Assembly (NCBI GenBank): GCA_007134485.1
Contig: SLKT01000022.1
Location: forward strand, 1-51,107
DNA length: 51,107 nt
Origin: Wenzhouxiangella sp.
Lineage (GTDB): Bacteria > Pseudomonadota > Gammaproteobacteria > Xanthomonadales > Wenzhouxiangellaceae
Reading direction: 5' to 3'
A program made the position numbers and the translations under genes. Shown one piece after another: positions 35,761-38,300 of this stretch (position 1 is its first letter; every line of letters begins with the position of its first letter). The notes below the pieces were generated by a model. It saw only the letters and a program-made list of their open reading frames with translations. It was not told the DNA's origin and searched no databases.

Positions 35761-37203
35761 TTAAACCCCCGGACCACAGTCCATGCAGTTGTCAGGTCGT
35801 TCCGGGCCCTGCCTGAGCTGGTGATTGAGATCCTGTAGCGCGGTGCGCAGACCTTCTTCGATGACCGGGTGGTAGAACGGCATGTCGAGCATCTGACTGA
35901 CGCTCATGCGGCTCTGGACAGCCCAGGCCAACAGGTGACCGATATGCTCGGCCGCCGGGCCGAACATTTCCGCGCCCATGAACAAGCCGCTGCCATGCTC
36001 GGCATATAGCCGCAAAAGGCCGCGATTCTTGCCCATGACCCGGCTGCGGCCCTGGTTTTCGAAGCTGACCGATCCGATGGCGTAGCAACCCTGGCAACGC
36101 TCGTCGACCTGCTGGATGGTCAACCCGACGGTGGCGATTTGCGGGTCGGTGAATACAACTGCCAAGGGGGTGCGGCGCAAGCCGGTTCGAACGTCCGGAA
36201 AGCGACCCGCGTTGGCGCCGGCAATCCGGCCCTCGTCGGCGGCTTCATGCAGCAGCGCCAGGTCATTGTCGGCATCGCCGGCGATGAAGATATGGCTGTC
36301 GCCACATTGCATGGTATAGCGATCAAACAGCGGTACACCACGCTCATCCAGCTCAAGCCCGGTATTGTCCAGGCCCAGCCTATCGACGTTGGGTCGACGA
36401 CCGGTCGCGGCGAGCAGATAATCAAAGGTCTCGGTCTTTTCCTTGCCGTCGTGGTCTTCGAACGAAATCTCGACACCGGCCTCGGTACTGCGAATACCGG
36501 TGGTCTTTGCATCGGGGTCGAGCGGAAACTCCTGGTTGAAGGTCTTCAGCGCGATGGCGCGGATTTCATCATCCTGTATGGGACCGACGGCGCCCCCGAC
36601 ACCGAACATGCGCACCCGCACACCCAGACGAGCCAGCGCCTGTCCGAGCTCCAGGCCGATCACGCCCGGGCCGAACACGGCCACGGATTCGGGCAAGTCG
36701 GCCCAATCGAAGACCTCGTCGCTGGTGATCAGATGCTCGCCGGCATCCTCCAGGAACGGCACGATGTGGGTGCGTGATCCGCTGGCAATGATCACCCGGT
36801 CCGCCCGAATGCGTTGGTCCTTATCAATGATCAGGGTATGGTCGTCCTCGAACCGCGCCATCCCGGATACCTTGTCGCCGGCCGGTATCTCCTCGATCGA
36901 ATCGAGCACGAAACCGACAAACCGGTCGCGCTCATTGCGGACCCGGTTCATGACTGCAACCCCATCGACTCCAATCCGGCCGGCGTGAATGCCGAACCGA
37001 TCGGCATGCTGCACCCCGTGATGGGCCTCGGCAGCGCTGATCAGCAACTTGCTGGGCATGCAGCCGACCCGCGCGCAAGTGGTGCCAAATTGTTGGCCCT
37101 CGATCAGCACCACGCTGTCGGTGTATTGCTTCGCCTGACGGTACGCGACCATCCCGGCCGTTCCGCCCCCGATGATGGCCACATCGACTCTTTTCTCGTT
37201 CAT
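35761..37203 (-). CDS. Dihydrolipoamide-dehydrogenase-like flavoprotein disulfide reductase
   Basis: The 480-residue FAD/NAD(P) oxidoreductase has an N-terminal FAD motif (VDVAIIGGGTAGMVA), redox-active Cys43 and Cys48 in CARVGC, an NAD motif (SVAVFGPGVIGLELGQ), a second FAD motif (SHIFIAGDADND) and a C-terminal dimerisation domain with HPVIEEG, matching the catalytic HPxxEE dyad. It lacks any linked E2 or E1 genes and ends with a Cys pair (NCMDCGPGV), which is unusual. It may be a stand-alone Lpd, or a related soluble transhydrogenase or disulfide reductase. Two start codons, ATG 37203 and ATG 37209, are both possible. Confidence 0.85.
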   Translation of the reverse strand: MNEKRVDVAIIGGGTAGMVAYRQAKQYTDSVVLIEGQQFGTTCARVGCMPSKLLISAAEAHHGVQHADRFGIHAGRIGVDGVAVMNRVRNERDRFVGFVLDSIEEIPAGDKVSGMARFEDDHTLIIDKDQRIRADRVIIASGSRTHIVPFLEDAGEHLITSDEVFDWADLPESVAVFGPGVIGLELGQALARLGVRVRMFGVGGAVGPIQDDEIRAIALKTFNQEFPLDPDAKTTGIRSTEAGVEISFEDHDGKEKTETFDYLLAATGRRPNVDRLGLDNTGLELDERGVPLFDRYTMQCGDSHIFIAGDADNDLALLHEAADEGRIAGANAGRFPDVRTGLRRTPLAVVFTDPQIATVGLTIQQVDERCQGCYAIGSVSFENQGRSRVMGKNRGLLRLYAEHGSGLFMGAEMFGPAAEHIGHLLAWAVQSRMSVSQMLDMPFYHPVIEEGLRTALQDLNHQLRQGPERPDNCMDCGPGV

Positions 37204-37300: not shown

Positions 37301-37584
37301 TATTAACCCGGCAGGTATGTAGATCACATTCAGGGCTTCAAGCAGGCCCCGAATCAAGGCGTCGCTCGCAGGTAATGGTGATTCCATTGGCAAGAGCGAG
37401 AACGCAGAGTCGGGGCCTGCTTGAAGCCCCTAACCTATTGATTTTTAATGACAGGCCGCAGTGTGGCTTTCGTCAGACTGCGTTATCGAAACTTGCTGTA
37501 GAATGACTACAGTGGCGTTTCGCTGCCTTGCAGACGAAAGCCACACTGCGGCTGAATGCGATCTACATACCTGCCGGGTTAATA
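37301..37584. repeat. Composite inverted-repeat element 1 (three-way-junction fold)
   Basis: Terminal arms of 33 bp (37301-37333 and 37552-37584) match at 32 of 33 positions and begin TATTAACCCGGCAGG. Inside are two further perfect 20-bp inverted repeats: 37333-37352 with 37410-37429, and 37455-37474 with 37533-37552. Each encloses smaller hairpins, for example CTGTAG/CTACAG at 37496-37512 and AATGG/CCATT. The outer stem runs directly into both inner stems with only a 25-base linker between them, giving a Y-shaped fold. TA dinucleotides flank the core TTAACCCGGC ends, like a TA target duplication. No coding sequence lies inside. Confidence 0.9.
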
Positions 37585-37616: not shown

Positions 37617-38300
37617 TTGATCACGCTTCATCACCTTGAAAACTCGCGGTCGCAACGTATTCTCTGGCTGCTTGAAGAGCTGGATCTGAAGTACAAGATC
37701 AAGCGCTACGAGCGTGACAAGAAAAGCGGCCTGGCGCCGGCGGCGTTGAAGAAAGTGCACCCGTTGGGCAAGTCGCCGGTGTTGAGGGATGGCGATCTGA
37801 CCCTGGCCGAGTCGGCTGTCATCGTCGAATACCTGGCTCGTCAATACGGTGATGACCAATGGGCGCCGAAACCAGGTGACGATGATTACTGGGCGTTCAA
37901 TTTCTGGTTGCATTATGCCGAGGGATCACTGATGCCACCGTTGCTGCTGCGGCTGGTATTCGAACGGGTCCGGACCGGGCCGATGCCGTTTTTCGTGCGC
38001 CCGATTGCCAGGGGTATTGCCGACAAGGTCGACCAGGCGTTCATCAATGACCAGATTCGCACCCATTTCGGCTATGTCGATCAACATCTGTCCGAACACG
38101 AGTGGTTTGCCGGCAATCAGATCAGTATCGCCGACATCCAGATGAGTTTTCCACTCGAGGCGGCCGTGGCCGGGGGCACCATCGGCGACAGTCACCCTCA
38201 TATTGTCGCCTTTGTTCAGCGCTTTCAGGCCAGGCCGGCTTACCTGCGCGCGCTTGAAGCCGGCGGCGATTACGACTATGGCCCTCGCGAGGAGGCCTGA
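37617..38300 (+). CDS. Glutathione S-transferase family protein (TTG start)
   Basis: The 227-residue protein has an N-terminal thioredoxin-fold domain (ITLHHLENSRSQRILWLLEEL, with Ser in the glutathione-activating region and cis-Pro in HPLGKSPVL, ESAVI) and an all-helical C-terminal domain (about 85-210). It conjugates or reduces substrates with glutathione in the cytoplasm. No ATG occurs near the true N-terminus. A TTG at 37617 gives the standard family start, with AGG about eight bases upstream. The open frame continues upstream only through the repeat element. The gene starts 33 bases after element 1 ends, so the element occupies its promoter region. Confidence 0.88.
   Translation: MITLHHLENSRSQRILWLLEELDLKYKIKRYERDKKSGLAPAALKKVHPLGKSPVLRDGDLTLAESAVIVEYLARQYGDDQWAPKPGDDDYWAFNFWLHYAEGSLMPPLLLRLVFERVRTGPMPFFVRPIARGIADKVDQAFINDQIRTHFGYVDQHLSEHEWFAGNQISIADIQMSFPLEAAVAGGTIGDSHPHIVAFVQRFQARPAYLRALEAGGDYDYGPREEA

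Follow-up and report, generated by a model that had tools for sequence, protein, structure and literature searches.

A two-armed MITE-like element beside a GST gene of Wenzhouxiangella, and a conserved hairpin arm carried behind unlike ends

The window is the whole 51,107-nucleotide stretch of Wenzhouxiangella sp. DNA analysed here (contig SLKT01000022.1). It carries a 284-bp element placed between a divergent lpd-like gene and a GST gene (Table 1). The element had initially been annotated as replacing any ATG start of the GST gene, but this was wrong: the gene has a TTG start 32 bp beyond the element and, as the orthologous genes read ATG at that codon, the element has displaced upstream DNA and not the start codon. 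The comparison was made with 12 orthologous loci on the sense strand, 7 further loci being left out; the window TTG (37617) is aligned with ATG in 11 of them and the twelfth is aligned only from residue 2. The lpd-like neighbour is absent within about 1.5 kb around the 19 other GST-like loci that were compared. A decayed end of the window element's own family, called F1 below, is seen upstream of the orthologous GST gene in genome G004 (L127, upstream of position 1501), perhaps from an independent insertion.

Table 1. Coordinates of the parts of the window element and of the genes on either side
Feature	Position	Strand	Description
Left terminal inverted repeat	37301..37333	+	TA (target dinucleotide), then TTAACCCGGC
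Right terminal inverted repeat	37552..37584	-	last bases TA
Arm A	37333..37430	+	hairpin, 20-bp outer stem 37333-37352 / 37410-37429, conserved bulged core; covariance model R1
Arm A, first core motif CAAGGC	37355..37360	+	
Arm A, second core motif CAAG	37391..37394	+	
Arm A, third core motif AACGC	37401..37405	+	
Linker between the arms	37430..37454	.	A+T-rich; small hairpin in the predicted + strand fold
Arm B	37455..37552	-	second hairpin, inverted relative to arm A; perfect 20-bp outer stem 37455-37474 / 37533-37552
Arm B, core motif CAAGGC	37525..37530	-	
Arm B, core motif CAAG	37492..37495	-	
Arm B, core motif AACGC	37480..37484	-	
GST gene (context, outside the element)	37617..38300	+	TTG start
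lpd-like pyridine-nucleotide-disulphide oxidoreductase gene	35761..37203	-	divergent; inferred start 37203 (reading MNEKRV)

No open reading frame of at least 60 aa lies wholly within 37301-37584, so the element has no transposase gene of its own. A GTG frame from 37461, considered as a possible coding function, proved to be the GST frame read back into the element. No terminator-like site was found inside the element. A search of the region against Rfam gave a single match, to mir-600, with an E value of 0.36 and far below threshold, and ten related loci gave no match.

The 33-nt terminal inverted repeats, described at the outset as matching with one mismatch, are 97% complementary, and the two 20-bp repeats that they enclose are both perfect, as had been claimed; that of arm A was read from the sequence and belongs to an inverted repeat detected as 23 nt with one mismatch (37333-37355 / 37407-37429). 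The stems do abut, with a 25-nt linker, and since positions 37333 and 37552 are each shared by the terminal stem and an arm, the abutting terminal stem is 32 bp long. The Y-shaped fold proposed in the initial annotation holds, but the tiny hairpins at its tips do not: inside each 20-bp stem there are about 57 nt of bulged, conserved structure. Folded as RNA, the element gives -180.3 kcal/mol on the plus strand and -178.0 on the minus strand (z -18.07 and -18.31), and on each strand none of 200 shuffles folds as well. The mismatch of the terminal repeat, 37326 / 37559 (alignment columns 26 and 265), is A-C on the plus strand and G-T on the minus strand; it is kept in the family, being unpaired in 18 of 21 distinct F1 copies, and it marks the orientation of the element.

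A search for further copies found 67 matching pieces in the element's own genome (3.35 Mb in 206 contigs), where the 22-nt end, with up to 3 mismatches, occurs at 27 sites and its reversed control at 0. Matches are present in 16 of 30 genomes of the genus, the own genome included. Exact occurrences of the end motif were also sought among named genome contigs, from which records of the own genome were possibly left out; the 57 stretches obtained are all titled Wenzhouxiangella, Wenzhouxiangellaceae or "Gammaproteobacteria bacterium". Altogether, F1-type ends were seen at 36 distinct full sites in the DNA examined. Eleven matched contigs (C39, C41, C118, C125, C168, C6, C153, C94, C138, C152 and C44) are cut at the element, as is expected because repeats break an assembly, and G023 and G024, each assembled as a single contig, also contain full copies, which argues against an assembly artefact. 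Neither plasmids (searched with three different elements), nor phages (with the window element), nor viral contigs (for an exact match of one end pattern) gave a match. By crude open frames, the insertion context relative to genes is mixed.

The nine copies in G024 lie at nine sites and are 97.9-100% identical, with 4 identical pairs. The F1 copy L167 is inserted at a TA of an older F1 end, and its excision in silico restores that end apart from one substitution, which fits a duplication of TA; in another locus (L003), one TA is common to two F1 copies. Of 30 listed F1-type elements, 22 begin and end with TA. Orthologous empty sites were aligned, and none is base-perfect. The F2 element L220 of G001 (the families F2-F4 are defined by their ends below) has its orthologous site unoccupied in G019, G005, G007, G010 and G016, with junctions that are not base-perfect, and the site of F2 element L215 of G023 is unoccupied in G022 and G004, again with a junction that is not base-perfect and with a further 15-nt difference; identity at these unoccupied sites is 71-80%. 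Among the seven elements for which the joined flanks were used as queries, L219 also gave spanning matches (unaligned), and neither L221 nor three F1 sites gave any.

Probable transposon partners of the F1 ends were found in G023. Three 1.1-kb elements with TATTAACCCGGC ends encode there a 347-aa protein with a DDE_3 domain (E 4.3e-40); the three proteins are 99-100% identical, and a fourth relative in G023 is 79% identical. The ends of this IS630-type transposon equal those of the window element in 22 of 24 bases on the left and 20 of 24 on the right, and a second subtype in G023 has 21 of 24 end bases as in element L174 of G002, the AACC/AATC difference between its left and right ends recurring in the G023 element L117. 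Four of 30 genomes have relatives of this transposase, and two of the 10 genomes searched for DDE_3 have that domain. The window's own genome, a draft of 206 contigs, gave no IS630-type transposase. Nor was an autonomous element with CTAGTGGNCC ends found in G023, where no pair of such ends is spaced 0.6-2.5 kb apart; the 58 CTAGTGGNCC sites of that genome (the reversed control of the pattern is commoner, with 133 sites) make up 20 convergent pairs of 270-272 bp, pairs of 40 and 166 bp, and 14 single ends. A degenerate IS630-type gene of G024 is without CTAG-type ends. In G023, IS630-type copies were also seen by eye to be clustered with an integrase-core transposase and a group II intron-like reverse transcriptase (L297, C1:840000-859999).

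The nested TA insertions, the near-identical copies at different sites and the IS630-type ends together identify the element as a non-autonomous transposon, and the initial suggestion of a MITE-like element with TA at both ends is supported by its copies in the own genome and across the genus, its insertion at a TA within its own kind and the ends that it has in common with an IS630-type transposon. By the features tested the element is a MITE, and it is a structural variant new among MITEs.

Incomplete and interrupted forms were noted as well. Single-arm elements of 161-163 bp occur in three genomes (L020 1469-1630, L116 149-311 and L278 364-524); the two of F1 type among them retain arm B only. 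Remnants in G023 (L113 near 126-171, L112 near 384-416) consist of two ends joined, or of one end alone, and in one element of G024 (L103 153-933) the F1 linker is interrupted by an insertion of about 0.5 kb that encodes, as judged by eye, an IS200-like TnpA.

Conservation of the pairing within F1 is strong. In the alignment of 24 full copies, 21 of them distinct, 96.8% of cells are paired over the 104 pairs of the Y structure in the distinct copies, a figure favoured by the drawing of that structure from the first sequence. At 28 pairs, and in 107 cells, both sides have changed; 500 shuffles gave means of 13.7 and 36.1 and none as high, and when the partners were slid only 2-7 pairs and 3-11 cells were changed on both sides.

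Arm A, arm B and a third hairpin, found outside F1 ends, have a common core, and a covariance model, R1, was built from 27 sequences of arm A and the third hairpin. R1 matches 24 of 30 genomes of the genus and 35 of 43 of the family, in 6 of its 7 genera. With a cut-off of E at most 1e-5 per genome, it also matches 99 of 398 genomes sampled from the order, in 34 of 98 genera and nine families by listing, 64 of the 99 being outside the family. Of 20 loci in the genus, 16 have ends of the 35-bp type flanking two arms, about 263-273 bp in all, two have short repeats only and two have none; the ends begin CTAGTGGGCC (F2), CTAGTGGTCC (F3) or CTAGTGTACC (F4). The 20 loci outside the genus, which were picked from the listed matches and are not a random sample, again include 16 in which inverted ends (17-36 bp as detected) and two inward-facing arms make up an element of 258-285 bp, along with one single arm and three loci without recognisable ends. 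Their ends begin TATTAACC in five genomes of family f9, CTAG in f1, f2 and f8, and TAGTGTCC in G194, and there are unlike ends in G065 (f4; AGGGAACCTC and AGGGTCTC) and G046 (f5; AGTGCGCTGCCC).

A set of 43 mutually distinct arms, drawn from six families of the order, has an exact CAAGGC in 39 members and an exact AACGC in 37. The spacing is 22 nt before CAAGGC (a value set by the extraction), 28-31 nt from there to CAAG, 6-7 nt to AACGC and 24-25 nt after it. The outer 20-bp stem of these arms has 96.2% of cells paired and both-side changes at all 20 pairs; 386 cells are changed on both sides, against 110 +/- 8 in shuffled and 86-111 in slid controls. Arm length, in the 142 arms that passed the stem filter, is 96-99 nt in 141 and 101 nt in one. 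To enter the collection an arm needed CAAG, CAAGGC and AACGC (the latter two with no more than one change) and 16 or more of the 20 outer pairs; as core and pairing were thus criteria of selection, the percentages are upper estimates, and it is the comparison with the controls that carries meaning. In L288 and L289, AT-richer elements from outside the family, CAAGGC and AACGC can still be made out.

The arrangement of the core is equally regular. In 62 of 67 distinct complete elements a core is present in each half, facing inward; of the other five, two are without a recognisable left core, two without a right core (one of these has an extra match in the other orientation) and one without both. 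The distance from the element end to the start of the core is 53-57 nt, save for one measured element with 51 nt, and mostly 52-53 nt when counted from the TA. The recurrence of one two-armed design and core behind quite different ends suggests that these elements gain something from the fold itself.

Some features of the elements beyond F1 may be added. The short linker of the F2-F4 and order-level elements (e.g., L222, L283, L277) is often CCCGAAGGG or CCCTTCGGG, which forms a tiny hairpin, so that the centre would be a four-way junction, and many of their ends finish in TCAG at the junction. The F3 element L299 4492-4762 (G023 C1:378491-378761) takes up exactly the space that separates two convergent open frames, with both stop codons overlapped by its CTAG ends, so that CTAG sites at gene ends may be favoured targets.

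The stems also carry information on which strand folds. In double-stranded DNA every G-T on one strand corresponds to an A-C on its complement, so that in a cruciform neither would be expected to prevail. G-U and A-C were therefore counted in the outer stems, on the strand that reads the core inward. Across 42 clustered arms there are 57 G-U and 10 A-C, with more G-U in 28 arms and more A-C in none. Dropping the fold filter gives 80:23 (59 clusters) and, with stricter clustering, 52:22 (41 clusters); arms defined by the element ends only give 126:42 (106 arms) and 49:28 (41 clusters), the last being the weakest case (p 0.022, where, as in the other tests of strand bias, the p value treats arms as independent and ignores their relatedness). 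By family, the counts are 58:14 in F1, 41:11 in F2, 18:7 in F3 and 9:10 in F4, in which (10 arms) the bias is absent. A looser count on predicted folds gave 112 G-U sense against 94 antisense, but it mixes non-homologous pairs and some of its clusters are not arms. With G-U 2-4 times as frequent as A-C on the core-sense strand, the anchored counts favour single-strand folding over a DNA cruciform: the core-sense strand probably folds when single, most simply as RNA and possibly as single-stranded DNA, and RNA-level folding is accordingly ranked above DNA-level folding. The structured RNA that had been offered as the other possibility for this locus finds no Rfam match above threshold, but the strand bias favours single-strand folding, and such a role is compatible with a MITE.

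The reading that we prefer, with a probability of about one half, is that of a non-autonomous transposon whose inverted pair of arms works as a folded single strand, a two-way gate on read-through RNA. An IS630/Tc1-mariner-type transposase would act in trans on the ends and paste the element into TA. As the alignments show, each half has an end of 33-35 bp and then a hairpin arm of about 97 nt; the stem varies freely, with compensation, and little change is seen in the core (CAAGGC, CAAG and AACGC), the arm length or the distance from end to core. The arm would work with the core-sense strand single and folded on itself, RNA being the simplest case. As both arms read inward, any incoming transcript, from either side, meets a sense arm first by simple geometry, and the pair could then stop, trim or bind read-through RNA, a gate that would leave the transposon ends or the neighbouring genes undisturbed. 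A broader version, which we put forward only tentatively, sees here a distinct class of mobile DNA, in which a portable RNA-folding module, with its core bases and spacing, persists as an inverted pair throughout a gammaproteobacterial order while at least two unlike kinds of ends come and go, the gate operating via a factor that reads the folded core.

The inverted symmetry of the two halves and the near-fixed spacing from end to core would also be accounted for if the arms acted as DNA during transposition, as a cruciform or as a single-stranded hairpin, in the pairing of ends or the binding of a transposon or host protein; the G-U excess on the core-sense strand is unexpected for a double-stranded cruciform, though single-stranded DNA would be biased alike, and we regard this explanation as unlikely. 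It is improbable, in our judgement, that these are ordinary IS630-type MITEs with functionless, passive foldback arms that are palindromic through template switching in replication. The MITE features are present, single-arm and arm-less remnants do exist, and the correction of palindromes can yield compensated change, but template switching does not explain the core bases, the arm length, the inward orientation or the G-U bias. Finally, the spread of most of the families might be driven by a distinct arm-recognising protein that has yet to be seen, and not by an IS630-type transposase. It is the arms and not the ends that are common to the families, G023 has no autonomous CTAGTGGNCC-ended partner and a DDE_3 match is absent in 8 of the 10 genomes searched; the F1 ends, however, match an IS630-type transposon in two subtypes, and MITEs can outlive their partner, which makes such a protein rather doubtful.

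Several known small repeats resemble these elements in part. In the passages concerned of PMC2229807, RUP (107 bp, proposed to be mobilised by IS630-Spn1) is like them in being small and repeated, with IS630-like ends and TA in the target; it differs in that those passages mention no arms with a shared core, while the present arms sit behind several different ends. CIR of Caulobacter and Brucella, as outlined in the same passages, has two long inverted repeats that give two arms and a linker, and is the nearest in this respect, for the window element likewise has two arms joined by a linker; it is contrasted there with repeats that pair end to end, whereas the present elements have both the arms and a 33-bp end-to-end repeat. 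CIR also exposes GANTC in its loop, and in our alignment of arms GANTC is not common to all. Correia/NEMIS and other TA-ended MITEs are described in that text with terminal repeats, TA ends and stable folded transcripts, much as here, and NEMIS RNA has been proposed to regulate neighbouring mRNA via RNase III, but they appear there as long stem-loops and not as a junction of two arms with an order-wide core (PMC2229807). The REP/REPIN repeats with their RAYT transposases are also many-copy palindromic repeats; in the account excerpted from PMC3733652 a REP has 20-40 bp and GTAG or CGTC tags, unlike the arms of 96-99 nt inside inverted ends. Such an element is unmentioned in the passages found of a 2024 review of prokaryotic MITEs (PMC10969869), and no description of one was found in the parts of the open-licence literature that were available.

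The usual view of MITEs is of insertion-sequence leftovers whose ends define them. In the present elements the interior has kept its structure and its sequence throughout a bacterial order, although the ends are unlike. Should the arms prove to work, one could test whether control of RNA (or single-stranded DNA) at its borders is what lets a small transposon survive. The covariance model allows such elements to be found by fold. G024 also has a further large palindromic element (L104, about 905-1290), in which several nested hairpins lie between ends GGAGCCTC..GAGGCTCC.
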